64,000 nt of DNA from a virus, in IMG/VR virus record IMGVR_UViG_3300027710_000011, positions 62,001 through 126,000 of that record; one strand, given 5' to 3'. Position 1 is the stretch's first letter. Every line of letters begins with the position of its first letter. A program made the translations under genes and the position numbers. Under the pieces are notes generated by a model. That model saw nothing but the letters and a program-made list of their open reading frames with translations. It did not search any database and had not been told where the DNA came from. This document shows, in pieces, positions 8,123-52,554 of the stretch.

Positions 8123-8602
8123 TCACCAACCAGACCAGGCTGGCTTGCCGGCGGAATTAAGCACCGTCACTTTTCGATGACGCAACCATTCCTTCATTTC
8201 AATCTTCTCAACTTTCCTGATGTTGCGCTGAATATCGTTCTTGGTTTTGAACTCATCAGCCAAGTTGTTAAAGCGATTGTTCACCGCTTCCCAACCATCT
8301 TCAGGTGCTTTGAAAATCGTGTACAGATACACCACAATGCCGAGCAAGTCTTCTCGTGTAGGCGAGACTGCACCATTCTCGATAACGATGGTGATGTTCT
8401 GGTCACGAGTTTGCACGCGATTGACTTTGAAGCTTTGCTCCAAAGCTGAAGCAAGTCCCATGTCAATCACATCGTCTCGTGACTTTGCAGCGTAGAGATA
8501 GTGATTGGATTCAGTCTGATCCCATTGCACTTCTACCCCAGTATGCTTAAAAGCAGGCTGGAGTACCTCATGCTCATATTTCGAGCTGTGATAAATGAGC
8601 AC
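8123..8602 (-). CDS. Hypothetical protein (159 aa)
   Basis: An alpha/beta protein with a beta-rich N-terminus (MLIYHSSKYEHEVLQPAF) and a helical C-terminal half (NNRFNNLADEFKTKNDIQRN). No family signature is seen. It lies 14 nt downstream of 8616-9011. Confidence 0.75.
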   Translation of the reverse strand: MLIYHSSKYEHEVLQPAFKHTGVEVQWDQTESNHYLYAAKSRDDVIDMGLASALEQSFKVNRVQTRDQNITIVIENGAVSPTREDLLGIVVYLYTIFKAPEDGWEAVNNRFNNLADEFKTKNDIQRNIRKVEKIEMKEWLRHRKVTVLNSAGKPAWSGW

Positions 8603-17276: not shown

Positions 17277-18194
17277 CTACTGTGCTTTAACAACGTACGT
17301 TTTAACTACTTTGTGCCCAACGCCTTCGTTCACGGTTTTATCGTTGATCCAGACGACTTTACCGCTCTTATAGTGGCGCTTGTGGCCTCGACGAACATGT
17401 TCTCGTGGTCTGAACCGCTCATCAATTCCTTCAGATGGTCCCGCATAATCAGTAGCTTCCGGAGATACAACATCTATTTCCAGAATACGGTAACTATCAA
17501 AAGGAAGTACGCCCTTTGGTAAGGACTTGTTATTGAACTGAGCTTTCTTCAAAATCTTGGGCGGACCCACGTTAACATTTGCACACGACAGCGCGTTTAA
17601 AAAGTTCATAAGCGCATGAGCTTCATCGTTGTAATCGGTAATTGGAAACCGACCATCAGAGGTAGCAATCAAAATAGCACAACTACCGTCCGCTGTAGTA
17701 GTTTTGAAATCCTTTTTAGGGATTGCGCCCATCGGTAATATGCACCATTTTTTATGTTTTTCATCGTAAAAGCACGGTTGAAAGAAAATGAATCTTTCAT
17801 CGCCACTTTCAGTTGCATAAACCAAACGCTTTCTTGACAGTATAGTGGTTTCTGCGTAATTACCCTCGATCCCTTTGGCCCTCATTTCCGCCTGCTGCGC
17901 CTGGATGATGAATTGATCTTCAGGTCTATCCTCACTCCGATCACGAGTAACGTTGAACTCAAGGCAAATTGTTTTAAACGGTAAGCGAAGTTCTTCGTCG
18001 TTGGGAAGTCCCGACAACCCTTTATCATCGAGAACAAAACCGTTATCAGGCAGCACGAACTTCTCAGAATCACGATGCAGCTTAGCGACGTAATATAGAT
18101 CCTCAGCATACTTGTGATCGCCAAGTGCCCTGACTCCATTTTCAAACTTTTTAGCATAAGCAGCAACTGCTCGGCTATAATTGAAGTATTCCAT
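17277..18194 (-). CDS. Hypothetical protein (305 aa)
   Basis: A 305-residue alpha/beta protein. A helical start (MEYFNYSRAVAAYAKKFENG) is followed by beta-rich segments (FKTICLEFNVTRDRSEDRP, RFIFFQPCFYDEKHKKW, DGSCAILIATSDGRFP) and a basic C-terminus rich in His, Arg and Lys. The tail could bind nucleic acid. No family is recognised. A box shared with the region ahead of 45315 lies upstream. Confidence 0.75.
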   Translation of the reverse strand: MEYFNYSRAVAAYAKKFENGVRALGDHKYAEDLYYVAKLHRDSEKFVLPDNGFVLDDKGLSGLPNDEELRLPFKTICLEFNVTRDRSEDRPEDQFIIQAQQAEMRAKGIEGNYAETTILSRKRLVYATESGDERFIFFQPCFYDEKHKKWCILPMGAIPKKDFKTTTADGSCAILIATSDGRFPITDYNDEAHALMNFLNALSCANVNVGPPKILKKAQFNNKSLPKGVLPFDSYRILEIDVVSPEATDYAGPSEGIDERFRPREHVRRGHKRHYKSGKVVWINDKTVNEGVGHKVVKTYVVKAQ

Positions 18195-18231
18195 GGTTGT
18201 TTCCTCTTTGGTTATGACGTATTACGCTGCA

Positions 18232-18257
18232 ATAATAAGTATCTGAAATATTCTAGG
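18232..18257 (-). promoter_or_regulatory. Putative promoter; 16-bp block shared with 45383-45398
   Basis: The minus strand carries CCTAGAATATTTCAGA followed by TACTTATTATT. The same 16 bases occur at 45383-45398, where ACACATATACC follows. Both lie between a terminator and a gene start. Confidence 0.4.
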
Positions 18258-18289
18258 CTATAGTTCTTAACAAAAAAGAAAGAGCATAT

Positions 18290-18311
18290 GCAGGGAGCCG
18301 AAGCTCCCTGC
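18290..18311 (-). terminator. Intrinsic terminator
   Basis: A 9-bp stem GCAGGGAGC/GCTCCCTGC with a short loop, followed on the minus strand by a T-rich tract. Confidence 0.8.
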
Positions 18312-18314
18312 ATT

Positions 18315-18674
18315 TTAGTTCTTAGGCAACTTCTTGAAGTTTTGTCTGAACTCTTCTGGGGAATAGTGTTTGCTACCAACGATCTTGGTGCACGTCGGGT
18401 CAAACGCAATTGCATGACCCATGCAGACTTCATCGGAACCTTTCCAACCAAAGGTGATAAGGATACCTTGTTGGAATTCAGTGCCGGCAGTGAAATGTCC
18501 GCGATTGATATCTGGTGTCTTTCCGCCGCCCTCCTCGACTTTGCGTATATCGATGAATAAATTCTTCATGAAGTCTGCGTGCTCCTGCAGCAAGCCGCAA
18601 GTAGTTGCAAAATCAAAGAACTCGATTGGATCTTCCATCTCCAACATCTTCTCGAGATTGTTCTTTTCAGCCAT
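18315..18674 (-). CDS. Hypothetical protein (119 aa)
   Basis: An acidic helical N-terminus (MAEKNNLEKMLEMEDPIEFF) leads to a small beta-rich region (GILITFGWKGSDEVCMGHA) and a basic tail. It is the last gene of a five-gene minus-strand cluster. No family is recognised. Confidence 0.75.
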   Translation of the reverse strand: MAEKNNLEKMLEMEDPIEFFDFATTCGLLQEHADFMKNLFIDIRKVEEGGGKTPDINRGHFTAGTEFQQGILITFGWKGSDEVCMGHAIAFDPTCTKIVGSKHYSPEEFRQNFKKLPKN

Positions 18675-18687
18675 TTACTCCTCCTTC

Positions 18688-19158
18688 TTACTTGAAAGTA
18701 TTTCTGCGCCAACGACCGTTTATGTCGCTAACAGGGTTGATAGAGCCGCCCTCACCCGCCAGCTTCATTTGGTCGCCGATGAGTTCGCGCATCTTGAACT
18801 GCTTTTGCACGCGCAGTTCGATGAAGACTTCGCCACACACGTCGTCAATCTGTGCGTAGTAATCGTCTTCATCGAACTCTTCACCTTGCGTGTCGGTGAC
18901 TTCATTGACGGCCTTGCGGAAAGCAGCCGCAGCTTTGGCCATCTCTACTTTTTCACGTTCTCTGAAACCCACTGGAAAGGTTTCAGGATCAGGCTTGGCC
19001 ACCATGGCTTCTGCGCCGCAATGCGAGATCTTCTGGCGTTGAGCATCCGTCATGTAAGGGAAGTACTTTTTGAGCACCTCCTCAAACTGATCGATCACGA
19101 ACTGCTTGAAAATCAAGTACAGCTCTTGATTGGTTGGGATCTTTATAACGTTACTCAT
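18688..19158 (-). CDS. Hypothetical helical protein (156 aa)
   Basis: An almost entirely helical, charged protein (QFVIDQFEEVLKKYFPYM; REREKVEMAKAAAAFRKA). It could form a coiled coil between residues 70 and 130. It shares one base with the start of 19158-19436. No family is recognised. Confidence 0.75.
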   Translation of the reverse strand: MSNVIKIPTNQELYLIFKQFVIDQFEEVLKKYFPYMTDAQRQKISHCGAEAMVAKPDPETFPVGFREREKVEMAKAAAAFRKAVNEVTDTQGEEFDEDDYYAQIDDVCGEVFIELRVQKQFKMRELIGDQMKLAGEGGSINPVSDINGRWRRNTFK

Positions 19159-19436
19159 CAGCGCACCTGACCTGTTCGACGTGCCGTGATGTTACGCATC
19201 GCTTGACGATACGTCGGGAACAGCGATTCATGCAAGCGCCAGGGTGTGAACAAATGCATGATCCAGCCGCTTTTGCTCTTGATCTTTGCCTTGAGCAAGC
19301 CGTCTTTGATGATCGGCTTGCTCAAGAACAACAGAGGCTGAGGTTTTGACTTTTCTGTCAATTCACCGGCCGGACATGTCCACATAGTGGTGCCCGACTT
19401 GAGCTTCTTGAATTTCTTGGAATTAGGATTCATCAC
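19158..19436 (-). CDS. Hypothetical basic protein (92 aa)
   Basis: A small basic protein with many Lys (MMNPNSKKFKKLKSGTTMW) and a central beta-rich KSGWIMHLFTPW. It overlaps both neighbours, which suggests coupled translation. Nucleic-acid binding is possible from charge alone. No family is recognised. Confidence 0.7.
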   Translation of the reverse strand: MMNPNSKKFKKLKSGTTMWTCPAGELTEKSKPQPLLFLSKPIIKDGLLKAKIKSKSGWIMHLFTPWRLHESLFPTYRQAMRNITARRTGQVR

Positions 19437-19684
19437 ATCTTCTCCGGAGTATGACCTTCAGGCCAAGGATCACTGCTGTCGCTTAAAACATCAATCATCC
19501 GGTTACGTACATCGTCACCACGGTCGCTGTGGAATTCGATAATGACATCGCCTTGAGTCGAATATTTCGTATGGAAATCTCGCAGTGCTTCAAGAGAAAG
19601 CGAAGCCTCCGAGACGATATCCCAATTCTCTTTCGTGTCTTTCATCAACACGTAAGGCACGTTGGAGGCTTCTTGCATTTTCAC
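19433..19684 (-). CDS. Short paralog of the next protein's C-terminus (83 aa)
   Basis: This protein lines up with the C-terminal part of the protein encoded at 19681-20340. Both share QEaSNVPYVLMKDTKENWDI-like starts, DVIIEF/QVLLEF strands, RMIDVLS/AAIDVLS helices and the ending PWPEGHTPEKM/AWPEGYKPEKKV. The two genes overlap by 4 nt. This looks like a tandem duplication in which one copy kept a longer N-terminus. Function is unknown. Confidence 0.75.
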   Translation of the reverse strand: MKMQEASNVPYVLMKDTKENWDIVSEASLSLEALRDFHTKYSTQGDVIIEFHSDRGDDVRNRMIDVLSDSSDPWPEGHTPEKM

Positions 19685-20340
19685 ACCTTCTTTTCCGGTT
19701 TATAGCCTTCAGGCCAAGCGTCGACTTGGGACAAGACATCAATCGCGGCATTGCGATCAGCAACAGCAGACGGACGGTTGAATTCGAGAAGCACTTGATC
19801 ATTACTCTCATCGGTGGCAACCGAAGTTGTCACGTGTTTATTGATGATGTCCCAGACTTCTTCGTTGTTCTTGACGACCAGGGACGGGATACCTGGGGTT
19901 TCTTGCAGATCCATTTTGTCTTCCTTCTTGGTTGGTTGTAGGATATTTTTCATCCGAGCGGAGTCAAAGAACTTGACCTCGTTTGAAATAAGTTTGGGGA
20001 GCAAGGCATTGAGCCGCATCTTTCCAAAATGGAAAAACATCTCGCTGCTAGTTGGTTCAGGACGATGAGTTATAATTATCTCGTCAGCAATGGTCTCCAG
20101 CCAACGTCGTGCACCGCCTGCAGGGCGAATAGTTCTGATCTCCACGCCCTTTGCCAATTCACGCAACTTGTTCACGTAGATGGGTTCACGCAAAAAGTCT
20201 GCTTTGTTGGGAATTTCCCAGATGTTGAGGTAATCGCGATATGCGTCTTTGGTATGGTTGGACGAAAGATCGACAGTTTGCTGATCCAGCTGGTTAAGCT
20301 TTTGCAACAATGCTGGGAAATCAATTTGGCTGTTATTCAC
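19681..20340 (-). CDS. Hypothetical protein (219 aa), paralog of 19433 product
   Basis: The first 130 residues are helical and basic in places (NKADFLREPIYVNKLRELA; MRLNALLPKLISNEVK). The last 75 residues repeat the fold of the downstream 83-residue protein, including DVLSQVDAWPEGYKPE. It starts a transcription unit after the terminator at 20382-20416. No family is recognised. Confidence 0.75.
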   Translation of the reverse strand: MNNSQIDFPALLQKLNQLDQQTVDLSSNHTKDAYRDYLNIWEIPNKADFLREPIYVNKLRELAKGVEIRTIRPAGGARRWLETIADEIIITHRPEPTSSEMFFHFGKMRLNALLPKLISNEVKFFDSARMKNILQPTKKEDKMDLQETPGIPSLVVKNNEEVWDIINKHVTTSVATDESNDQVLLEFNRPSAVADRNAAIDVLSQVDAWPEGYKPEKKV

Positions 20341-20381
20341 GTTAGTTTCTCTTGGTTAGTGAAATAAAAAAGAATAAACAC

Positions 20382-20416
20382 CTCCTTAAGTACACGGGTT
20401 AGATGCACTTAAGGAG
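20382..20416 (-). terminator. Intrinsic terminator ending the structured RNA region
   Basis: A perfect 10-bp stem CTCCTTAAGT/ACTTAAGGAG with a 15-base loop. On the minus strand it is followed by TTTATTCTTTTTT. It would end a minus-strand transcript that covers the folded region upstream. Confidence 0.85.
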
Positions 20417-20590
20417 ATATTCGAATTCGCTTAGTTCTTCGGTACCGGTGGCCATGAGACTTTCGTCTCGCTGAACTGTGCTTGCGCACAACAGCAACGG
20501 TTCGTACTCCTCTACAAACGAATTCGGTATCTCTGTTTTATTCACGTGGCATCCGTACAAGTTGACCAACGATAAATTGGGGGCGGTCAA
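20399..20590 (-). other. Weak 63-codon frame, probably not a gene
   Basis: The frame can only start at TTG, has no ribosome site, and its stop lies inside the loop of the terminator at 20382-20416. Its composition does not look typical of the neighbouring proteins. It may simply be the 3' part of the structured RNA. Confidence 0.25.
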
Positions 20591-20599
20591 GCGTGCACT

Positions 20600-21590
20600 A
20601 TGGAATCACCAGCGTTATTAAGTCCGTATCTGGATCTTGGTCTGCCGCAACCGGCGTCGAATTGTTTTTGGAAGCTTTTTGGCGGGAGGATTGCAATACA
20701 GTAAGCTAATTAACTCACGTTGTAGACAAGCCCATCCATTTCTGGATGCAAGCAAGTCTAAGCTCAGCGCCGCAACGTGGCCACTGTATCCATGAGGGTG
20801 TTTTAAGAACCTGACTCGATATAATCCGTAGCATTATCCGATCGCATAGATGCTAACGTAGCCTCGGTTTCTTTAATCACATGCGCTCACCCCACCGGGT
20901 ACCTTCGATGCACAGTAGGCGCCGTACAGGCTGCGTCGGGAACTCGGCAAGGGCGGCCACAGCCCACAGTCCCGACTATCGCTGTAGAACCCTTGAACTT
21001 CAGTCGCCTGCAAACACTCGCTTTTGCGCAGCGTGCATTAAAACTGAAGCCAAGGCCCAAGACCTCCGATCTTAGAACGTCAATACGTACTGCCAGTATT
21101 GCGCGTGCTATGGCTTGATCGAACCGGAGGTCCTTTTTGTTTATCAACCCGATGAGGTACCGGGTCAAACGAATGCGTATCCCCACAGAACCTCCCTTCT
21201 GAGTTGACTTTTATTGACAGCAGATTTGGTTTGAATCTACTGCTTGGTTGTTGGTGGGCATGAGTAAACGAGGGGCCTTCTCGAATCCGATGTGGTCTGA
21301 ACCGTCACGGTATTGAAGCCTGGCAGCAAGTTACTCTTCCCGTTTTTTATTCTGTTGGTCAGGGCAACTAACCAACGTAATTGACTCTTTCTAGAGTTTT
21401 GTGTTGGCCGCAACCGGCCTTCGAATTGTGGGTTGGAAAGGGAGTAATGACCATGGTTGATCGTCACTACTCCCAACAGCATTCGGATGCGCTCGTGCAG
21501 CACCATGCTGCGGGCTGAAAAGCGCTTCCAGCCTACGTTGCGTTGATGAATTCGCCTGGACTGCTCATGCGCTGCCGCATCATGATCGTT
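20600..21590 (-). ncRNA. Candidate large structured non-coding RNA
   Basis: Nearly 1 kb with no convincing gene is packed with nested complementary arms. One domain has 20696-20702 with 20783-20789, inside it 20716-20722 with 20773-20779, and inside that the hairpin 20733-20748. Others are 20935-20941/20970-20976, 20998-21004/21043-21049 and 21061-21068/21125-21132 enclosing 21081-21086/21096-21101. A hairpin motif GCCGCAACCGGC followed by TCGAATTG occurs twice (20644-20664 and 21407-21428). The stem 21440-21451/21463-21474 has a G-U pair only if transcribed from the minus strand. The size and ornate folding recall phage RNAs such as GOLLD or ROOL, but I cannot assign a family. Confidence 0.5.
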
Positions 21591-21971
21591 GTCCTGGCGC
21601 GCTTGCACTAATTCATCATTCTCGTATTCACAGACGTACCAAGGAGAGATGGGTTCTTCATTCTGAACCAACGCTTGTGCCAAGGCTTTTCCGAGTCGAA
21701 TGGCAATACTGTCATCCTCAGATAACAGCACTCTGAGAATATCGCGTTTTGCAGCAACTGATCTGGCATCCACCATGCGTTGAAACGTAGAGCCAGATTC
21801 TTGCTCACGAATAGCGTGTAGGAATTCTTCGCGCTTGCTGGCTTCTTGGTTAGCGACTTCGATCAGTTCACATCCGGCTTCTTGTACCAAGTGTCTGATC
21901 TTATCGATCAAAGCAGAATCAAGACCTGCCCCCACGATAAGGAGGCGTTTTGTTTCATCGCTGGAATTCAC
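21237..21971 (-). CDS. Hypothetical protein, C-terminus doubtful
   Basis: A GTG at 21971 follows AAAGGAGG; an ATG at 21989 overlaps that ribosome site and is less likely. The first 125 or so residues look like a real protein: a strand-turn start (RLLIVGAGLDSALIDKI), then helices (AAKRDILRVLLSEDDSIAI; LGKALAQALVQNEE). The last 120 residues are basic and odd, and the DNA below about 21590 is full of hairpins. The true stop may be missing because of a frameshift, or the gene runs into the structured RNA. No family is recognised. Confidence 0.55.
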   Translation of the reverse strand: MNSSDETKRLLIVGAGLDSALIDKIRHLVQEAGCELIEVANQEASKREEFLHAIREQESGSTFQRMVDARSVAAKRDILRVLLSEDDSIAIRLGKALAQALVQNEEPISPWYVCEYENDELVQARQDNDHDAAAHEQSRRIHQRNVGWKRFSARSMVLHERIRMLLGVVTINHGHYSLSNPQFEGRLRPTQNSRKSQLRWLVALTNRIKNGKSNLLPGFNTVTVQTTSDSRRPLVYSCPPTTKQ

Positions 21972-21992
21972 AACTACCTCCTTTCTCATTGG

Positions 21993-22520
21993 TTAAACTT
22001 GATAGCAGCTCAGGTGAGCTACACGGTCGAAGAACTCTTCGCAGTCGTCGTATTTCTTAAGTATCAGACTTCCATCACCAAACGTGTGTTCGTACCTGTA
22101 TGGTAAGAACCCGCTCATGACGTAAAGCTTAAACAGTTCAAACTGATGAAAGATGTCTAGAGCCGATTGCTCAATAGTGATCATCTTATCGATCAGTGTT
22201 ACTGACGGATACGGCCAAGGGTTTTGTTTCACACCATTTTCTTGTCCGAGTAACTTAAGTTCTTCCTCGGCTTGACTCAAGTGCAAGTGAAGATACCGCG
22301 TCATGCTAGCGATGTCGCGGTACGCTGTTGCTCTGTAAGAACAGGCTTCAACGATTTGATCAATGATGAATTCAGGGCTGGCTGAGAACAGCGAATTAAT
22401 CGTTCTGATCTGTCGTGAAACATCAATCACGACGGTATGCGGAAGATTGTTAAAGTCATCTACCGCATCAGAGTAACTAATATCTTCTTGCACTGAAGCT
22501 CCTTTATTGACATAAGTCAA
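21993..22520 (-). CDS. Hypothetical protein (175 aa)
   Basis: A helical protein (SDAVDDFNNLPHTVVIDVSR; YRDIASMTRYLHLHLSQAEE) with a C-terminal beta hairpin (EHTFGDGSLILKKYDD). It overlaps the upstream gene by 4 nt. No family is recognised. Confidence 0.75.
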   Translation of the reverse strand: MTYVNKGASVQEDISYSDAVDDFNNLPHTVVIDVSRQIRTINSLFSASPEFIIDQIVEACSYRATAYRDIASMTRYLHLHLSQAEEELKLLGQENGVKQNPWPYPSVTLIDKMITIEQSALDIFHQFELFKLYVMSGFLPYRYEHTFGDGSLILKKYDDCEEFFDRVAHLSCYQV

Positions 22521-22726
22521 TCAGGAACAGTGTGTGTCCTGACCAACTCGATTGCGCGTTGCTTGATGAGGGTAGAACCCAGTTGCTTTGCGAATGCAAG
22601 CATTTCTGGATCTTCGCTCTTATCAATCTTAGACCAAGTGACGAACTGTTTACCCCAGGAAATCTGAGGAGTCAGATCGTTGTAGCTGAAAGCAGCCACT
22701 TGACTTTTCTTGAATTGTGCAGCCAT
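22517..22726 (-). CDS. Hypothetical protein (69 aa)
   Basis: I chose the ATG at 22726 (MAAQFKKSQVAAFSYNDL). A longer frame to 22801 starts with Cys- and aromatic-rich residues and would overlap the promoter box. The ribosome site is weak. No family is recognised. Confidence 0.65.
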   Translation of the reverse strand: MAAQFKKSQVAAFSYNDLTPQISWGKQFVTWSKIDKSEDPEMLAFAKQLGSTLIKQRAIELVRTHTVPD

Positions 22727-22805
22727 GATTTTAATGTTGGTTAGGTGTCCACAAATGATGGTAAACACACAGTAAAAACTACACATAACACCAGCCTCCA
22801 AAATG

Positions 22806-22902: not shown

Positions 22903-24939
22903 ATGGCTAACATTGTTACACGAGCCCTTGGCTTCGTGGATGTGTCTGAAGACGAGAAATACATCACAATCGGCGGTGTGAAGGCTGAGAATATCGGTAA
23001 GGACATTCTCCGCATGTGGGGAACGAATCGCATTGAGCAACACATGTTCAATGAGATTGGTGGACGCGTTATCAGGTTCCCAAAGTTCTTTGGTCCTGAG
23101 GTGCATTACATCCTCAGCAAGATTTTGAACAACAAGAAGGTCGTTACAAGTCGTGGAAGTATCAAGGACGCTTTGGCTCTCCTTGAACAAAACACTTGGA
23201 TGAAACGCATCACGCAAGAGTACGACCCTATTATTGATTTGGATGCCGTCAAGCTGTTCAATAAGACGCCGATGCCGCACCAGATTAATTTCTTCCAGAT
23301 GTATAGTCATCGTACGCAATCGTACGGACTGAACGGCTATCTCCTGTCCGCTGGCGCTGGCACTGGTAAGACACTGATGGCACTCATCTTGTCCGAAATG
23401 CTGCATGCTGACTACAAGGTGATTGTCTGTCCAAAGAATGCTGCTTACCGAGTGTGGGTAACTTCTTTGGCTGAAGAATACAAAGATCCTCGCAAGGCTT
23501 GGGTAATCGCAGACGGTAAGGCTTACGAAGGTCAGAAGTACATTGTCTGTCATTACGAAGGTTTGGAAAAGCTCAAGGCCATTGCTGGCCGCCTTTCCGG
23601 ACGCGTGATCATCCCGCTTGATGAGTCTCACAATTTGAACAGTGACGATTCCTTGCGGACTCAATACTTCATCGACATCTGTCGCTCCATCCGTAACGTA
23701 CACGTGCTGTGGATGTCGGGTACACCAGTGAAAGCTCTTGGGTACGAAAGCATTCCACTGTTGCGCTCCATTGATCCGCTCTTCACCGATGAAGTGGAAG
23801 CGCGGTTCAAGAAGATCTATGGGCGTGATGCCACAAAGGCTTTGGACATCTTGCGTCAACGTATCGGCATGATTTCTTTCCACGTGGAAAGCTCTGCGGT
23901 TGTGACAAATGAGACGACGACTCACAATCGGATGATCAGTATCCCGAACGGTAAGATATACACGTTGGATGCTGTGCGTACCGAGATGCAGAAGTTCATT
24001 GAAACTCGTCTGAAATTCTACTTGGGCGAGAGCAAGAGTTTCAAGAAAACTTATGAGCGAGCGCTTGATATCTACGAAGACACGATCAAGGATAATGGCC
24101 TGCTGTCTAAAGACAGTGAAGAACGTCGTGCATTCAAGACGTACAAGCGCTACATCGAGCTGATCTCTTCCGGCTTTGATCCAATGAGTATGGCTAAGGA
24201 AGCCAAGTATTGCAATCATTTCGAGAAGAACATCATTGCTCCTACTTTGCCAAAAGACTTGAAGAAGGCTTTCATGAGCGCCAAGTCTGTGGTGAAGTAT
24301 CCGCAGCTTAAGGTACTTGGTGAAGCACTCGGTGGTGTTCTGAGCAAGAAGCGTGTTCAATGTCACTTGGACATGATTCCGCATATGGGACTAGAAAAGA
24401 TCATCAACGCGGCTTCGAAGAAGACCATCATCTTCTCGAGTTACGTTGAGGTGGTGGATGCAATCACGAAGTACCTGAAGGGTAAGGGTTTCAATCCCAT
24501 TGCCGTACACGCAAGTAGTGGTCAGGAACTCTCAGCATCCGTTAACCAGTTCTTCAAAGATCCGAATCTCAATCCGTTGGTGGCGACTTTCCAATCGCTA
24601 TCGACAGCAGTTCCGATTATCTGCGCGAACTGTACTGTGTTCACGAACATGCCGTTCCGTGAATACGAGATTACACAAGCTCGTGCTCGCACGAATCGTT
24701 TGGGTCAAGATACTGCTGTTGAGTACTACAACACGTACCTTGACACTGGTAAAGAGCCCAACGTCTCCACCCGCTCACGTGACATCCTGGAATGGTCGCG
24801 CCAACAAGTTGCAGCCATCCTTGGCCAAGACTATGGCGGCACTATTACAGCTGAAATGGTGAACTCGATGGAGAGTTTGACAGAGGACTACACTCCTTTC
24901 GAGATCAGTCTCGCTATGGAGGAATACGCAGACTTTTAA
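22903..24939 (+). CDS. SNF2-like SF2 helicase
   Basis: The 678-residue protein is a superfamily 2 ATPase of the SNF2 type, which translocates on duplex DNA. Motif I is GAGTGKT (residues 151-157), motif II is DESH (240-243), motif III is SGTP (272-275) and motif VI is QARARTNRLGQ (from 592). An insert of about 100 helical residues lies between the two RecA-like lobes (around 360-460). About 130 residues precede the helicase core. A strong GGAGG precedes the ATG. In phages such enzymes act in replication fork handling or transcription; the exact role is unknown. Confidence 0.9.
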   Translation: MANIVTRALGFVDVSEDEKYITIGGVKAENIGKDILRMWGTNRIEQHMFNEIGGRVIRFPKFFGPEVHYILSKILNNKKVVTSRGSIKDALALLEQNTWMKRITQEYDPIIDLDAVKLFNKTPMPHQINFFQMYSHRTQSYGLNGYLLSAGAGTGKTLMALILSEMLHADYKVIVCPKNAAYRVWVTSLAEEYKDPRKAWVIADGKAYEGQKYIVCHYEGLEKLKAIAGRLSGRVIIPLDESHNLNSDDSLRTQYFIDICRSIRNVHVLWMSGTPVKALGYESIPLLRSIDPLFTDEVEARFKKIYGRDATKALDILRQRIGMISFHVESSAVVTNETTTHNRMISIPNGKIYTLDAVRTEMQKFIETRLKFYLGESKSFKKTYERALDIYEDTIKDNGLLSKDSEERRAFKTYKRYIELISSGFDPMSMAKEAKYCNHFEKNIIAPTLPKDLKKAFMSAKSVVKYPQLKVLGEALGGVLSKKRVQCHLDMIPHMGLEKIINAASKKTIIFSSYVEVVDAITKYLKGKGFNPIAVHASSGQELSASVNQFFKDPNLNPLVATFQSLSTAVPIICANCTVFTNMPFREYEITQARARTNRLGQDTAVEYYNTYLDTGKEPNVSTRSRDILEWSRQQVAAILGQDYGGTITAEMVNSMESLTEDYTPFEISLAMEEYADF

Positions 24940-42740: not shown

Positions 42741-43136
42741 TTAGACGCGCTGGATATCAGCCACGCCATTCGTGAACGTGATCAGTTGTGAGAACTTACC
42801 CAGGTCAAATCCGGGGATGGCGGACTCCTGATTGTTCCAGGCACGAAGACGCTCGATCAACTCGTTACCGTCGTAGTCGACAGTACCGCCAATCGACCAA
42901 CGGCTGAGTTCCACTTGACCATCGTCGGTCACGTAGTACGGGTTGATACAACACACCGTATCTTCATTGACCGTCACGAGTTTTTCACCCACGTGGTTAT
43001 TGAAGACTGCGGCATGAGTGATCGTCTTAATCTTACCGTTATGACCGTCAATGTACTTGCCCTGATTTTGTTCCAGCACATGCAGGACATTGATAACAGA
43101 AGCGGACAGGGCGGGAGTTTGTGTGGAAACGTTCAT
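42741..43136 (-). CDS. Hypothetical protein (131 aa)
   Basis: The ATG at 43136 (MNVSTQTPALSASVINVL) follows AAGGAAC. The second half is beta-rich (ELSRWSIGGTVDYDGNEL). No family is recognised. Confidence 0.72.
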   Translation of the reverse strand: MNVSTQTPALSASVINVLHVLEQNQGKYIDGHNGKIKTITHAAVFNNHVGEKLVTVNEDTVCCINPYYVTDDGQVELSRWSIGGTVDYDGNELIERLRAWNNQESAIPGFDLGKFSQLITFTNGVADIQRV

Positions 43137-43160
43137 GATGTTCCTTGTGAGGTAATAAAA

Positions 43161-43178
43161 GGAGGGCACATGCCCTCC
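43161..43178 (-). terminator. Intrinsic terminator
   Basis: An 8-bp stem GGAGGGCA/TGCCCTCC followed by T-rich sequence on the minus strand, after the gene at 43187. Confidence 0.8.
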
Positions 43179-43186
43179 TCCCTTTT

Positions 43187-43513
43187 TCAGATCCTGTCTT
43201 CTAACAGGAACTGTCGGATTTCATTACGAAGCGTTTTACTATAACGCAATTCGTAATCATCCGACCACCAGTTTTGTTTGGAGCTGAAAACCTCAACACC
43301 GTCGTACAAGACAACAGTGTTGCGACTCTCTTCTCCGCCATAACCGACGGTCTCCACTTGCACCAGCTCAGGGTTGAGATTTGTTCTCAACCACCAAACA
43401 GTGGTGTAAATGAAGTCTTCAACGATATTCCATTTCATGTCACTACGAAGATGATAGACGTCATCTTCGGAGAAAGAAATGGTGGAACCGTTGTTTTTCG
43501 CTACGTTGGACAT
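43187..43513 (-). CDS. Hypothetical protein (108 aa)
   Basis: The start at 43513 (MSNVAKNNGSTISFSEDD) follows AGGAG. It has a Trp-rich middle (MKWNIVEDFIYTTVWWLR) and a beta strand (TVVLYDGVEVFSSKQNW). No family is recognised. Confidence 0.72.
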   Translation of the reverse strand: MSNVAKNNGSTISFSEDDVYHLRSDMKWNIVEDFIYTTVWWLRTNLNPELVQVETVGYGGEESRNTVVLYDGVEVFSSKQNWWSDDYELRYSKTLRNEIRQFLLEDRI

Positions 43514-43616
43514 GATGTCTCCTAGTAGCGGACAGCAACTGATCAACACGATCAGTGACCCCGCTCATCCTCTTTTGATCCAGCTGGGTCGCGCTGGAGA
43601 GGTTTAACAGCCCTGG

Positions 43617-43832
43617 TTAGGGCTGAGTATCTTGGGAAGCAGCTTGCGCAGCCTCCCGTTCTTCTTCGTCGTAGTTGTCTTGCATCTCCTTCTCGAAGAT
43701 CTTGGCGTGCTTACGAGCGCATGCTCCGCACATCAGGTAACGATTACCGTCACTGCTGTCAAGCGCTTGACGCAAGTCGTCAACCGGAACTTCTTTCTCA
43801 CAGTTCTCGCAGAGGTCAGTATCGACTATCAT
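43617..43832 (-). CDS. Small zinc-finger protein (71 aa)
   Basis: Two CxxC pairs are visible, CENC near residue 8 and CGAC near residue 36, spaced as in a treble-clef or zinc-ribbon finger. A helical acidic C-terminus follows (EKEMQDNYDEEEREAAQAA). Small zinc proteins in phages often bind host polymerase or nucleic acid; here the partner is unknown. Confidence 0.78.
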   Translation of the reverse strand: MIVDTDLCENCEKEVPVDDLRQALDSSDGNRYLMCGACARKHAKIFEKEMQDNYDEEEREAAQAASQDTQP

Positions 43833-43847
43833 TTCAATGGCTCCTTA

Positions 43848-44114
43848 TTAAGCTGCCTTTGTTTCCAACAAGTTCTTCAAGCGAACGGTCATTTCAATGT
43901 TCCATTCACCGTCGATAATGCATTGCTTTGTAGCTTGCAAAAGAGCACAGCCATCCAAGTAGATGACGACCATGCTGTCTTTCACAACCAGTTGTACTGC
44001 GTCAACGCGCAACTTAGAGATACGTTGAATGTGACGCAGACGAGCAAACGTACGACCAATGAAGGACATAGCGATCTTGCTTTGTGCCTTCAGTGTCTTA
44101 TAAACTTTGTTCAC
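43848..44114 (-). CDS. Hypothetical protein (88 aa)
   Basis: A basic N-terminal helix region (SFIGRTFARLRHIQRISKL) followed by a beta-rich half ending EWNIEMTVRLKNLLE. That ending resembles SWSVEVTEELRDAI in the 44932 product, so the two may be related. No family is recognised. Confidence 0.72.
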   Translation of the reverse strand: MNKVYKTLKAQSKIAMSFIGRTFARLRHIQRISKLRVDAVQLVVKDSMVVIYLDGCALLQATKQCIIDGEWNIEMTVRLKNLLETKAA

Positions 44115-44146
44115 TTAAAACTCCTTAATTAGTTGAGTTCAAGAGT

Positions 44147-44180
44147 GATAGCCATACCTACAAAAGCAAGTATGGCTATC
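44147..44180 (-). other. Strong hairpin between genes
   Basis: A perfect 11-bp stem GATAGCCATAC/GTATGGCTATC with a 12-base loop. There is no clear T tract, so it may be a processing or stability element rather than a terminator. Confidence 0.55.
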
Positions 44181-44205
44181 GCCCCAGAGGACGATAGTGG
44201 TTGCG

Positions 44206-44628
44206 TTAGTGATAACGCTTGTTGCCCCAGCGCTTGGAGCGAGCCAGACGAACGACTTCCTTAGAAGCCGTAGACACGTCGCGCATCATTTGCGCAAACA
44301 TGTCTTCTGGTTCGTCTGTTTCCAGGTATTTGCGCAGATGAGCCTCACCCTTAGCAGTGATGACATCTACGACAAACACGCGTTGGATGTGTGCCAGGCG
44401 CGCTTTGATCAAGTACTCCAGCTCGGGTGCCAGAGCAGTCTTGGAGGCTTGAGCAATGAACTCAGCCTTGGCCAGGAACTTGATCGCATCTTCGAGAGCA
44501 GCTGGCTTGGATGCCAGATACGTCTTGAATTCGTCGTTCTCGACGTCGCGAATGACACTCTTGGCTGCGCCAGGAATGTGTTTGGATGCCTTCTTATCGA
44601 AAGCTGCAAGCAAAACGGTGGCGTCCAT
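44206..44628 (-). CDS. Hypothetical helical protein (140 aa)
   Basis: All helical, basic and alanine-rich (TVLLAAFDKKASKHIPGAAK; KFLAKAEFIAQASKTAL). It ends in arginine- and lysine-rich residues (ARSKRWGNKRYH). No family is recognised. Confidence 0.75.
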   Translation of the reverse strand: MDATVLLAAFDKKASKHIPGAAKSVIRDVENDEFKTYLASKPAALEDAIKFLAKAEFIAQASKTALAPELEYLIKARLAHIQRVFVVDVITAKGEAHLRKYLETDEPEDMFAQMMRDVSTASKEVVRLARSKRWGNKRYH

Positions 44629-44664
44629 GTGGGACCCTTTCTTCGTTGGTGGATGGAATTGAAA

Positions 44665-44684
44665 AGCCCGAAGATCTTCGGGCT
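44665..44684 (-). terminator. Perfect palindrome, possible terminator
   Basis: The 20-bp palindrome AGCCCGAAGA/TCTTCGGGCT follows the gene at 44691 and may form a stem with a small loop. Confidence 0.65.
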
Positions 44685-44690
44685 ACGAAT

Positions 44691-44885
44691 TTACAAAACG
44701 AGGAACGAATTGGAATCGTACGCTGTTGTGTATTGACTCACAGGGACAAAACGGTAGTTAACATTTTGTCCCTTGCGTTCTTTACGCTTCTCAGGATCAT
44801 TCTCAGGTATGAGAAAATGACGGGACTCCTGACCAATCACAACCACCAAGTCTTCAGACTCGTCTTTAGCTTTGCCGTAGCTCAT
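44691..44885 (-). CDS. Small protein (64 aa)
   Basis: The start at 44885 (MSYGKAKDESEDLVVVIG) follows GGAGGTAGC. A middle part with RHFLIPENDPEKRKERKG is charged. No family is recognised. Confidence 0.65.
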   Translation of the reverse strand: MSYGKAKDESEDLVVVIGQESRHFLIPENDPEKRKERKGQNVNYRFVPVSQYTTAYDSNSFLVL

Positions 44886-44931
44886 GCTACCTCCCAAGTA
44901 ACCTGTACCCACATGAGTACAGAGTTGAAAA

Positions 44932-45315
44932 TCAGAACATCTTTGCAGGCTGAATTGCGTCACGCAGTTCTTCGGTCACTTCCACAGACCAAGAGGTGTC
45001 GTTGAAGAAGTCGCGCTTGGCCTTCACCAGTTTGCGATGACCAACCACGAGCTCGATCTCGCCTTGGATACTGGTTTCCATTTTGAACTTGCTCGGGTCA
45101 GAGCTGTTGGCCTTGATGAAAGTGGCCAGCTTGCTCAGCAAGTCCAGAGTGGTGACGGTGTCAATTGCAGTTTCGATCTTGATCATTTTGGTGACTTTCG
45201 TAGTTGTGGAAGTGAAATTTACATCATGAGTCTTCTTGGCAGAACTGCCGATGGCGCACAGGGCAGCCAAGAAGAACAAACCCAGGGCGCTTGAGGGTGC
45301 AGATTTTTCAGTCAT
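44932..45315 (-). CDS. Hypothetical protein with hydrophobic N-terminus (127 aa)
   Basis: A hydrophobic helix (LGLFFLAALCAIGSSA, residues 11-26) could be a signal anchor. The rest is helical then beta (IQGEIELVVGHRKLVKAK), ending SWSVEVTEELRDAI like the 43848 product. The gene follows a 16-bp block shared with 18242-18257. No family is recognised. Confidence 0.72.
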   Translation of the reverse strand: MTEKSAPSSALGLFFLAALCAIGSSAKKTHDVNFTSTTTKVTKMIKIETAIDTVTTLDLLSKLATFIKANSSDPSKFKMETSIQGEIELVVGHRKLVKAKRDFFNDTSWSVEVTEELRDAIQPAKMF

Positions 45316-48927: not shown

Positions 48928-49078
48928 TATCGCTTCCTTTCTTCATGCGGTTGCTCATGTTCTTGTCCTTCATCAGTTCGGTATAGAGTTTCAAAGAGAA
49001 ACCCAACACGATCAAATTACCGACGACAAGCAAGACGTTGACGATGGTAAGTCCGATGTTTAGAGTGGTTATTTCCAC
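48920..49078 (-). CDS. Small membrane protein (52 aa)
   Basis: A GTG at 49078 has AGGAGG 4 nt upstream. An earlier frame would read through the promoter box. The product (VEITTLNIGLTIVNVLLVVG) has a hydrophobic helix and a basic tail (YTELMKDKNMSNRMKKGS). It is a small membrane protein of unknown role. Confidence 0.6.
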   Translation of the reverse strand: MEITTLNIGLTIVNVLLVVGNLIVLGFSLKLYTELMKDKNMSNRMKKGSDNV

Positions 49079-49116
49079 ATCGCCTCCTACAGTTAGTTTA
49101 CTTATACACCAGGTCA

Positions 49117-49125
49117 GTGATATGT
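49117..49125 (-). promoter_or_regulatory. Putative phage promoter box
   Basis: Minus strand ACATATCACTGACC preceded by TCTATTCTTTTTTGATT, nearly identical to the site at 835. It lies between a terminator and the start at 49078. Confidence 0.4.
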
Positions 49126-49148
49126 AATCAAAAAAGAATAGACTGCAT

Positions 49149-49176
49149 AAAGAGAGGAGCATTGGCTCCTCTCTTT
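49149..49176 (-). terminator. Intrinsic terminator
   Basis: A 12-bp stem AAAGAGAGGAGC/GCTCCTCTCTTT with a 4-base loop lies after the gene at 49179, with a T-rich tract on its minus-strand side. Confidence 0.88.
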
Positions 49177-49178
49177 AT

Positions 49179-49490
49179 TTAGAATTTAATTTGCTTCCAC
49201 TTAAAGAATTTTGCCTTCCAACCAGAATCTGTAAGAATATAACAGACGTCCGGTACTTTATTGGTGAATGTTTGAATCTTACGAACTTTCACGTCGATAG
49301 ATTCAAACAGTTTAATACAGCCATTCATATCACAGCAATTGTGCGATGGCATGTACAGCATACCTTCCTGTTCAAGAAAGTTATATTCGATACTTTCAAC
49401 CTGACACATAAGACCAGGGTGATTAAAGCCCCGAAGAGCTTCAGTTTTTTCTTCATTTTCATCAGGGATCCAGTCGTCTTCATTATTCAT
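49179..49490 (-). CDS. Hypothetical protein with CC motif (103 aa)
   Basis: An acidic start (MNNEDDWIPDENEEKTEAL) leads to YMPSHNCCDMNGCIKLF. The proline-x-x-x-CC element resembles those in the proteins at 59767 and 63471. No family is recognised. Confidence 0.72.
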   Translation of the reverse strand: MNNEDDWIPDENEEKTEALRGFNHPGLMCQVESIEYNFLEQEGMLYMPSHNCCDMNGCIKLFESIDVKVRKIQTFTNKVPDVCYILTDSGWKAKFFKWKQIKF

Positions 49491-49524
49491 GATATTTCCA
49501 ATGTTGATAAAACGTTACGGCATA

Positions 49525-49547
49525 GGGGGAGGCTAAAAGCCTCCCCC
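49525..49547 (-). terminator. Intrinsic terminator
   Basis: A 9-bp stem GGGGGAGGC/GCCTCCCCC with an AT-rich loop lies after the SET-domain gene. Confidence 0.85.
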
Positions 49548-49549
49548 TT

Positions 49550-49999
49550 TTATTTCAAGTACTTTGGATCCAACATGGTCCCACGGCACTTAGGACTTTC
49601 ACACAAACACTTGAACTTACTCAGCTCAGTATCTGTGGTGCGCATTCTGTAATCAATGCAAAGCTCTTCACCTTGCTCGATTTTTCTCTTTGCATAAAAA
49701 CGAATCTGCAGACGATCATTCTCGTCTCGCTCTTCTCGCGCAGCTACATTAGGACTGCACGAGTGATTCATCTTGCGCATCGAGTTGAGCCGGTTGTCGC
49801 CATCGATAGTGGAACCATCAGACAGCTGAAAGCAATAGAACCTAACCCCATCATCTTTGATGAGATGCTCTGTGCCTTCTTTGTACCTCTTTCCAAAGTA
49901 CTGACCAACCAAGACATGACGAGCGATTGGGACGGTTGTGTACAAACCATCAAACCCGTGTTTTGTCTGGCGTACTTCCACTCCCTTAATTGCTCTCAT
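49550..49999 (-). CDS. SET-domain protein (lysine methyltransferase-like)
   Basis: The 149-residue protein has the signature motifs of SET-domain lysine methyltransferases: the N-terminal GLYTT with HVLVGQYFG, the catalytic NHSCSPN (residues 78-84), GEELCIDY (110-117) and a post-SET zinc-binding CxC-x4-C (C131, C133, C138) with a CRG continuation. In the family these bind S-adenosylmethionine and transfer a methyl group to lysine. A target in a bacterial cell could be a host or phage DNA-binding protein. It is small but contains all core motifs. It lies 132 bases from a tRNA-Thr gene. Confidence 0.9.
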   Translation of the reverse strand: MRAIKGVEVRQTKHGFDGLYTTVPIARHVLVGQYFGKRYKEGTEHLIKDDGVRFYCFQLSDGSTIDGDNRLNSMRKMNHSCSPNVAAREERDENDRLQIRFYAKRKIEQGEELCIDYRMRTTDTELSKFKCLCESPKCRGTMLDPKYLK

Positions 50000-50132: not shown

Positions 50133-50207
50133 TGGTGCCGGATATCTGGATCGAACAGATGACCTACCGCTTACAAGGCGGTTGCTCTACCACTGAGCTA
50201 AGCCGGC
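50133..50207 (-). tRNA. tRNA-Thr (anticodon TGT)
   Basis: On the minus strand the sequence begins GCCGGCTTAGCTCAGTGG, has the anticodon loop CTTGTAA on a GC-rich stem (anticodon TGT), a T-arm with GTTCGATC, and ends with an encoded CCA. The acceptor stem has one mismatch at its sixth pair. A full cloverleaf can be drawn. It follows directly on the gene at 50209. Confidence 0.9.
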
Positions 50208-50208
50208 T

Positions 50209-50493
50209 TTATTTTAACACCAAACAATCTTGTCGCATGCGAAACAAAGCACTGTCTTCCCAACACTCTTCGTTGGGGTAGTACAACTTCTCAGCGGCCG
50301 CGGCTTCGGTCGGGAAATTCTCGCCGATCGGGCAAAGCACAATGAACTGGCCAGGCTTTGCGAATTTCGCTGCGTCAGCCTCATCCCAATGCAAAGACTC
50401 GGCCATCCAATTCTTCTCGTCCACCACCGTGCCAACAGCCCAAATTCGCTTCGGCAAAGGCGCGCCTAACTGGTCTTGAGGTGTTTGTTCCAT
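50209..50493 (-). CDS. Hypothetical protein (94 aa)
   Basis: It starts MEQTPQDQLGAPLPKRIWA. A central acidic helix (SLHWDEADAAKFAKPGQF) precedes PNEECWEDSALFRMRQD. Its stop lies 2 nt before the tRNA. No family is recognised. Confidence 0.72.
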   Translation of the reverse strand: MEQTPQDQLGAPLPKRIWAVGTVVDEKNWMAESLHWDEADAAKFAKPGQFIVLCPIGENFPTEAAAAEKLYYPNEECWEDSALFRMRQDCLVLK

Positions 50494-50508
50494 GATGTTC
50501 CTAAGACT

Positions 50509-50637
50509 TTAACGTGCTCGCCAACAACGCGGATACGGATACCAAGGTATCTGAACAGGTTTTGATTCAGGTTTCGATTCTTCCTTCGTCTTAGGACGAT
50601 AGGGAGGAATCGCGTACTTGACAACAGGCGCTACCAC
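50509..50637 (-). CDS. Doubtful small basic frame (42 aa)
   Basis: Only GTG can start it and no ribosome site is seen. The proline- and lysine-rich sequence (PPYRPKTKEESKPESKP) ends in Trp/Arg. It could be a real short protein or chance. Confidence 0.3.
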   Translation of the reverse strand: MVAPVVKYAIPPYRPKTKEESKPESKPVQIPWYPYPRCWRAR

Positions 50638-50638
50638 G

Positions 50639-50917
50639 TTAGCACCAAACAATCTTACCGCCTTGTACCCAGTAATGGGACTTGCACGGGAGTTGCTGGT
50701 TTCCGATGGATGGATGCAAGGTAGGTCCCTCAGGACTTTCCATGTACGTCCAACCACGTTCTTTATCGATGGGAGTCACCGTTTCAATACCGCACCCACA
50801 GGCACAGCGATGAATGGCGAGTTCGTACTTCTTGGAAACGTAGAGCTTACCGTCCTGCATCTTCGTGCGTTCCGGCATTGTCACTACTTCTTCAACTGTC
50901 AGCTTTTCAATTGTCAT
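50639..50917 (-). CDS. DUF6527-like protein
   Basis: The 92-residue protein resembles the DUF6527 family. The signs are CACGCGIETVTPIDKERGW and the ending PTLHPSIGNQQLPCKSHYW. Cysteine and histidine positions fit a metal site, typical of the family. The start at 50917 (MTIEKLTVEEVV) has GGAGG upstream. Function is unknown. Confidence 0.75.
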   Translation of the reverse strand: MTIEKLTVEEVVTMPERTKMQDGKLYVSKKYELAIHRCACGCGIETVTPIDKERGWTYMESPEGPTLHPSIGNQQLPCKSHYWVQGGKIVWC

Positions 50918-50924
50918 TGAAACC

Positions 50925-51068
50925 TCCATTCACCAGGACCCGAACAATACTCGTGTGCCCTTAGTCTGACTTATCATGCTGTCAAGCGCAGTGTATTTCA
51001 CCTGCCAGGTTATCCTCACCCGTCTATGAACCTTATCTAGAAAGATTCGCCAGGCCCTGGTGAATGGA
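50925..51068 (-). ncRNA. Candidate structured RNA domain 2
   Basis: A perfect 13-bp outer stem (50925-50937 with 51056-51068) closes a 118-nt loop with no gene. It is only 10 nt from a second closed domain (51079-51246). One arm overlaps the ribosome site of the gene at 50917, so the fold could affect its translation. No known RNA family is recognised. Confidence 0.45.
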
Positions 51069-51078
51069 ACTTCATCTC

Positions 51079-51246
51079 TATATGGCTGCACCTCTAGGTC
51101 GCATCATGGTCTCTGGAGACAGCACTGTGTGCCGAAACGACAACCAAGCGTTACTTCCACAATTAACAAGCATCACCAAATTAACTGGGTTTCTATTCTT
51201 TCGACCTTGCGGGATCGATGGTCCCGCTACCAGATGCACCCATATA
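51079..51246 (-). ncRNA. Candidate structured RNA domain 1
   Basis: Outer pairing of 51079-51090 with 51235-51246 (11 of 12 bp) encloses hairpins at 51109-51120 and 51209-51227 (6 bp). It begins right after the terminator of the gene at 51280, so it is likely a minus-strand RNA. No family is recognised. Confidence 0.45.
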
Positions 51247-51274
51247 AAGACGGTGATTTAAGTTAACCGTCTTC
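51247..51274 (-). terminator. Intrinsic terminator
   Basis: An 8-bp stem AAGACGGT/ACCGTCTT with a 12-base loop lies after the gene at 51280; TTTATATGG follows on the minus strand. Confidence 0.75.
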
Positions 51275-51279
51275 CGCTC

Positions 51280-51507
51280 TTATCTTCCGATGGTTTTAAG
51301 ACGCAGTATCAGAGCTGCTTGTGCGTCCATGCTGGATTCAAGTTCAGAAATAGCGAGTTCCAAATCACTCGGTGGATGTGGCGAGTGAAGTGTTTTCTGA
51401 GCAAGTTCAGAGATTTGTCTCAGCTTAACTATGTTGGCAGAGACAACAGTGTGCTGATCTTGAAGCACCTGTATCTTCTCTTTGAGATCAGGATCGTTAC
51501 TATCCAT
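51280..51507 (-). CDS. Hypothetical coiled-coil protein (75 aa)
   Basis: Wholly helical (EKIQVLQDQHTVVSANIVK; DLELAISELESSMDAQAAL) with a heptad pattern. It may dimerise. No family is recognised. Confidence 0.72.
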   Translation of the reverse strand: MDSNDPDLKEKIQVLQDQHTVVSANIVKLRQISELAQKTLHSPHPPSDLELAISELESSMDAQAALILRLKTIGR

Positions 51508-52447: not shown

Positions 52448-52554
52448 TGGCGCTACTTGGAATCGAACCAAGCACCTGCCTTTCTGTCGTAGCTAACGCA
52501 GCAGCGTAATCGCAGGGACAGATCGGTTGCTCTAGCCATCTGAGCTATAGCGCC
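52448..52554 (-). tRNA. tRNA-like gene with about 31 extra bases
   Basis: On the minus strand a perfect 7-bp acceptor (GGCGCTA/TAGCGCC), a D-arm (GCTCAGATGGCTAGAGC) and a T-arm (CTTGG TTCGATT CCAAG) are present. The stretch between D- and T-arms is 55 nt, against about 22 in a normal tRNA and too long even for a class II arm. It holds nested hairpins (TCTGTC/GACAGA, ACGC/GCGT). It may contain a small intron or be broken. I cannot assign an anticodon. Confidence 0.55.

Follow-up and report, generated by a model that had tools for sequence, protein, structure and literature searches.

The locus lies in a jumbo phage known from an IMG/VR record of 276,772 bp, bases 62,001-126,000 of which make up the window, the whole 64,000-nt stretch of DNA that was analysed; coordinates are those of the window unless marked otherwise. 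The phage appears to be a deep branch of the phiKZ-like jumbo phages, a placement that rests on matches of its helicase (22,903-24,939) to Xanthomonas phage LucasX (46%), Klebsiella phage Eowyn (43%) and many phiKZ-like Pseudomonas and Erwinia jumbo phages (36-41%). Neighbouring proteins used as bait for near relatives found none. The region of interest, 20,376-21,436, is situated within a minus-strand block of orphan genes (17,277-22,801), whose tested proteins had no detectable relative, with the exception of a 305-aa protein sharing 29% identity with a DT01 protein. By a simple gene caller, the gap containing the region is the longest without genes in the 277-kb genome; this gap also includes two low-scoring ORFs (21,237-21,989 and 21,993-22,520). 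The features of the locus, in ascending order, are these:

19,681-20,340, minus strand: downstream orphan gene, 219 aa, with a good coding score
20,366-20,422, minus strand: intrinsic-terminator-like hairpin (20,422-20,376) of 20 pairs, five of them G-U, followed by the tail ATTCTTTTTT
20,376-21,436, minus strand: mostly non-coding stretch with minus-biased folding, the core of the finding, delimited by codon, period-3, positional and fold scores
20,399-20,605, minus strand: ORF3, an open frame with an ambiguous coding signal, 63 aa from TTG 20,590
20,456-20,495, minus strand: two adjacent GNRA-loop hairpins inside ORF3, GUGC-GCAA-GCAC and GAGAC-GAAA-GUCUC
20,606-20,676, minus strand: repeat copy 2 by repeat alignment, CAATTCGA, hairpin GCCG-GUUG-CGGC, a second small hairpin and ACGCUGGU
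20,696-20,789, minus strand: nested three-layer hairpin domain of 8 + 7 + 5 + 6 bp, by folding
20,887-21,186, minus strand: ORF2, 99 aa from a GTG, with the Shine-Dalgarno sequence GGGAGGT
20,997-21,050, minus strand: 9-bp stem GCUUCAGUU/GACUGAAGU around a hairpin (z -4.6 for 20,991-21,055)
21,059-21,134, minus strand: 13-bp stem AGGACCUCCGGUU/GAUCGGAGGUCUU with smaller hairpins within
21,237-21,971, minus strand: ORF1, 244 aa from GTG 21,971 behind a strong Shine-Dalgarno sequence, AAAGGAGGT (open frame of 250 aa, 21,989-21,237)
21,368-21,439, minus strand: repeat copy 1 by repeat alignment, CAATTCGA, hairpin GGCCG-GUUG-CGGCC, a second small hairpin and ACGUUGGU
21,440-21,474, minus strand: 12-bp hairpin GGGAGUAGUGAC/GUCAUUACUCCC

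Coding signal is lost over most of this stretch. Codon log-odds are below zero in all six frames across nearly all of 20,360-21,400, the period-3 signal vanishes, and positional base composition marks ~20,376-21,436 as non-coding or at most weakly coding. The sequence-only reading had seen no convincing gene between 20,600 and 21,590, which holds for the part up to ~21,436, whereas the remainder, 21,590 to ~21,436, is probably coding. The frame there is ORF1, which is probably a gene because of its strong Shine-Dalgarno sequence and GTG start. Its positional coding score climbs until ~21,436 and then drops at the rate of random or non-coding sequence; the point where the signal ends is also the start of repeat copy 1. 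The last ~65 ORF1 codons, which cross that copy, are non-coding-like, and the frame extends 200 nt into the region. ORF2 is probably spurious because its codon-position composition is not coding-like; its second-position composition is atypical and its positional score resembles that of non-coding sequence. ORF3 may be coding: its score lies midway between random sequence and real genes, its codon-position composition is coding-like, and its start has no convincing Shine-Dalgarno sequence. The ORF3 frame opens at 20,605, directly past repeat copy 2, and ends at 20,399, inside the terminator hairpin. No homologue of ORF1 or ORF3 was detected, and Pfam and PHROG returned nothing noteworthy for the stretch. 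The data support ~0.8-1.05 kb at ~20,376-21,436 that is non-coding, lies on the minus strand and ends in a terminator, a length that fits the size of roughly 0.6-1.2 kb looked for in large phage ncRNAs, with the ORF1 tail and ORF3 as caveats.

Near each end of the region stands one copy of a direct repeat, the two being 763 nt apart and 73% identical across 70 nt. The hairpin-plus-tail motif reported twice by the earlier reading is confirmed as part of this longer repeat, the copy at 21,407 carrying one extra base. None of 300 dinucleotide shuffles attained the repeat score, although 23 of the 441 genome windows contain a diverged repeat just as strong. Between the two copies there is almost no change in the lead CAAUUCGA or in the GCCG-GUUG-CGGC hairpin, while the flanks have drifted. 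Both copies also contain the second small hairpin, with differing stem letters; these are not counted as covariation because they cannot be aligned without an indel, and two internal copies are in any case too small a set for such evidence. A covariance model of the two-copy element found only these two sites in the 277-kb genome, and this model (R1) had no match among 49 relatives. Several leads on the element were discarded. A looser pattern scan gave 25 matches, the best at 19 bits and forced by the pattern, and a scan of viral contigs for CAATTCGA plus the hairpin gave nine, all in unrelated sequence and approximately the number expected by chance. Duplicated coding sequence was likewise rejected as the origin of the repeat: the translations of the two copies have a few residues in common, but an indel and a stop codon disrupt copy 1, and there is no start.

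The individual stems described earlier are present on folding at their reported positions, the three-layer domain at 20,789-20,696 among them. The 12-bp hairpin (arms 21,474-21,463 and 21,451-21,440) indeed has a G-U pair on the minus strand that is broken on the plus strand, and the 13-bp stem (arms 21,134-21,122 and 21,071-21,059) has three. Local folds favour the same strand, with z of -5.3 on minus and -3.2 on plus for 21,435-21,480, and -3.3 and -2.3 for 20,690-20,795. Over 20,590-21,580 the local-span z is -5.0 on minus versus -0.6 on plus, and with the terminator added it is -6.1 and -1.9. This strand asymmetry is real, since the plus strand scores near zero, and it is not exceptional. 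In the 64-kb control, minus-strand windows average a z of -3.6 (sd 1.8) and 19% are as low or lower. The minus/plus values of the gap (-4.9/-0.85) are at the level of windows holding ordinary minus-strand ORFs, such as 79,161-80,160 in genome coordinates, which holds the 305-aa gene (-5.2/-2.3), and 207,704-208,703 (-4.0/-0.4). The number of stems, long ones included, and their energy are average for the window. The claim of an unusually dense set of stems therefore fails against the genome-wide fold controls, and fold energy was dropped as proof of an RNA, given that coding windows of the same genome fold equally well. Eye-counted stems and fold energy alone, these controls warn, cannot tell RNA genes and ordinary genes apart in these genomes. 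Conversely, a weak fold energy does not rule an RNA out, because in LucasX a hairpin that is conserved and covarying sits in a region whose z is only -0.7, a sign of the low sensitivity of the test. Among 1-kb minus-strand segments of the window, those with the strongest local folds have z of -9.3, -8.5 and -7.5 and lie at 49,001-49,991 and 43,001-44,991.

The downstream boundary is drawn by the hairpin at 20,422-20,376. On the minus strand it consists of a stable 20-pair stem followed by a U-run (the U-rich tail ATTCTTTTTT), the form of an intrinsic terminator, and the earlier description of a strong minus-strand terminator is borne out. As five G-U pairs are needed, it should work best on that strand; the plus-strand fold of the same sequence has 9 pairs only. 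Terminator-like sites in the scanned stretch number 8 against 6.4 expected, which is near chance, and this hairpin is the longest of them. No promoter is visible in the region.

As the sequence-only reading had anticipated, the region belongs to no family that could be matched. Rfam gave no gathering-threshold match, relaxing the cutoff to E 10 on 20,300-21,700 brought up no meaningful one, and the genome outside the window had no Rfam matches. The GOLLD covariance model had no match at the gathering threshold in the window or the genome, nor on 20,300-21,700 at E up to 10; the ROOL model likewise had no match for the region. The same reading had pointed to related phages as the place to find the region again, and a DNA search of a phage collection and 81 related phage records returned no homologue. 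This absence, from collections that may lack near relatives of the window, is not proof of uniqueness; with no homologue there is consequently no covariation evidence for the region. Short blastn matches from 50 relatives piled up at 21,310-21,281 and were rejected, as they fall within unrelated genes.

GOLLD is often found near phage tRNA genes, and the earlier reading had drawn a parallel with large RNAs in such a setting. The parallel does not hold, as ARAGORN finds a single tRNA in the whole genome, at 50,133-50,207, which is 29 kb from the region; this distance counts against a GOLLD or ROOL reading. The region resembles GOLLD in being a large multi-hairpin phage RNA candidate of similar length, yet differs in having no GOLLD match in Rfam and no tRNAs nearby. 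It shares with ROOL its phage-borne nature and size class, but again Rfam offers no match, and the surrounding 29 kb contain no tRNA island. In GOLLD itself the 3' region is conserved, and the RNA assembles into nanocages (PMC12286853). Another, weak tRNA call in the window was made by Rfam at 52,448-52,554 on the minus strand (107 nt, 40.7 bits), without an ARAGORN call; it possibly reflects a tRNA carrying an insertion or an extended arm.

A closer parallel in layout is found in Vibrio phage ICP1, in which RNA-seq identified the most abundant transcript as an unclassified RNA of ~800 nt from a ~1-kb gap that has no ORF, in a phage lacking tRNAs (PMC7567579). In each case a lytic phage has ~1 kb devoid of ORFs, away from tRNAs and outside any known family. 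However, the ICP1 RNA is backed by RNA-seq, whereas the region here is known from sequence alone and found no blastn match in the phage collection. Phage phiKZ, of a related lineage, also makes non-coding transcripts; two candidates are reported, the first of ~100 nt, and the passage on them presents neither as a giant RNA (PMC8545117).

The reading tentatively preferred, at a probability somewhat short of even, is that of an unclassified minus-strand ncRNA, or a very long structured 3' region, that works as RNA and uses the repeats as contact sites. A minus-strand transcript would enter from ORF1, coding to ~21,436, or start at a promoter inside the region, would cross ~1 kb of non-coding sequence and would halt at the intrinsic terminator at 20,422-20,376. 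The non-coding part of this presumed single, defined RNA would fold into separate hairpin domains and might serve as a scaffold or be bound by a protein of the phage or its host, with the paired 70-nt hairpin elements near its ends as the best candidates for conserved functional contact sites. In favour of an RNA are the long stretch of phage genome without genes, the minus-biased fold, the repeat, the terminator and the precedents of ICP1 and phiKZ; against it are a fold no better than that of genes, the lack of a homologue, the empty Rfam search, the 23 genome windows with repeats of equal strength, the ORF1 and ORF3 frames and the lack of a visible promoter. The original proposal of a giant structured ncRNA of ~1 kb is thus upheld as regards a non-coding, terminator-ended stretch with a repeated hairpin, but not as regards Rfam, homologues, tRNA neighbourhood or a fold that is anything other than typical, and a giant functional RNA in the region is a possibility that falls a little further below an even chance. 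To our knowledge, only a few large phage RNAs have been described, none with an established function. An unclassified large RNA from a jumbo phage of the phiKZ-like kind would enlarge this small set and pose the question of what becomes of such RNAs where a phage keeps transcription apart from translation.

The main competitor, unlikely though in serious contention, is decayed or fast-evolving accessory DNA, in which orphan-gene remnants and read-through, ordinary hairpins and a normal operon terminator would account for the locus with no large functional RNA. The setting agrees with this, as the orphan block 17,277-22,801 has almost no relatives beyond the one 29% DT01 match, the fold statistics resemble those of coding windows, ORF1 continues without a stop of its own, and ORF2 and ORF3 look like fragments of genes. 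Mere decay sits poorly, however, with long stems of which several use G-U pairs strand-specifically, with a repeat that preserves exactly its hairpin part, and with a gene-free length that is large for a tightly packed phage genome.

Three further explanations carry much less weight. An intron or intron-like insertion in one gene, with ORF1 as exon 1, ORF3 as exon 2 and the repeats marking the ends of the insert, is improbable. It would explain why the ORF1 coding signal ends where copy 1 starts and the ORF3 frame opens at 20,605, just past copy 2, with no convincing Shine-Dalgarno sequence; excising 763 nt between equivalent repeat positions also puts the frames in register, which chance alone achieves one time in three. 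Yet the joined frame has stop codons in copy 2, just ahead of ORF3, no catalytic core was found (at E up to 10, Rfam has no group I match and only a meaningless D5-like group II match, E 0.83), and neither ORF has a homologue against which to check the junction. A similarly slim chance is given to a DNA-level element, such as recombinase sites or a replication or packaging signal, formed by palindromic 70-nt repeats flanking a spacer. The pair of direct repeats, with its spacing of 763 nt, its palindromic core (GCCGCAACCGGC) and no further copy in the genome, is what such an element would offer, but the G-U pairs of the long stems work only in minus-strand RNA and there is no skew change at the site. 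That overlooked small proteins (the full 244-aa ORF1, the 99-aa ORF2 and a 48-63-aa ORF3) fill most of the stretch is very unlikely. Good Shine-Dalgarno sequences ahead of ORF1 and ORF2 and the coding-like codon-position composition of ORF3 fit this explanation; the non-coding-like scores of the ORF1 tail and ORF2, the atypical second-position composition of ORF2 and the absence of Pfam or PHROG matches of note do not.

A control scan of gene-free gaps brought out a second candidate in the same genome and on the same strand, outside the window (G000:50240-51440, minus strand; L120:10240-11440), and it is a far better giant-RNA candidate than 20,376-21,436. Its gap (50,210-51,400 in genome coordinates) has a z of ~-14 and -0.39 to -0.40 kcal/mol per nt, and its ~1.2 kb without convincing ORFs contain many long hairpins, many of them GAAA-capped. 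It differs from the first region in this far stronger fold, in the GAAA hairpins and in a 3' module to which a second phage has a related one. It has no meaningful Rfam match and no match in the phage collection. The 3' part is homologous to a stretch of phage G041 (80% over 56 nt, E 5e-6), and the common module occupies L120:10650-10709 (minus strand) and L138:1664-1760 (minus strand; G041:C1:127006-127061). Its AUCCAGA loop is complementary to the loop of the next hairpin, UUCUGGAGU, as in a kissing loop; both loops are kept between the two phages and the first stem is fully replaced (AUGCUC/GAGCAU versus GGCAG/CUGCC). A model of this module, R2, has only two convincing sites among 71 records, namely the second candidate and G041. 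A match in G052 lies inside genes and was set aside as chance, as was LucasX 8,481-8,502 as a homologue of the second RNA because it falls inside a 2.4-kaa gene.

The G041 RNA candidate (L138:1576-2457, minus strand) is ~880 nt long, ORF-poor and internally duplicated; close to it are two tRNA-Leu genes, separated by an HNH-like ORF. A hairpin from its duplication, CCCGG..CUGUAGGYGGAU..CCGGG, recurs with compensatory stem changes. Three copies lie in the tRNA region of G041 (127,205-127,237, 127,472-127,503 and 126,007-126,038), two in gaps of the tRNA region of LucasX (MW825358: 142,021-142,052 and 136,960-136,991) and one in G019 (183,923-183,955), with no tRNA in the surrounding 5 kb. The CUGUAGGYGGAU hairpin and the R2 and R3 modules are absent from 20,376-21,436, and the idea that this region is a copy of the second RNA or of those modules was abandoned for want of any sequence similarity.

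Giant RNAs seem likely in this phage lineage, which raises the prior for an RNA at 20,376-21,436 slightly and lends it no direct support. The more ambitious proposition is that the genome encodes at least two unrelated giant RNAs, at 20,376-21,436 and at G000:50240-51440, the latter founding a new class in phiKZ-like phages through the kissing-loop 3' module shared with G041, whose own RNA carries the covarying hairpin also present in LucasX and G019. This proposition is doubtful, at roughly one chance in four; were it true, phiKZ-like phages would routinely use large RNAs.

A further RNA of a different kind, ~180 nt long and tRNA-Leu-like, was seen on the minus strand of L231 and L232, around G013:C1:208244-208283 and G046:C1:140719-140743. 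It lies inside tRNA arrays and has no ARAGORN call. Its start resembles a D-arm (GAGUGGGGGAAUUGGUAUACCC), its T-arm stands far downstream, and the sequences from the two phages are 76% identical.
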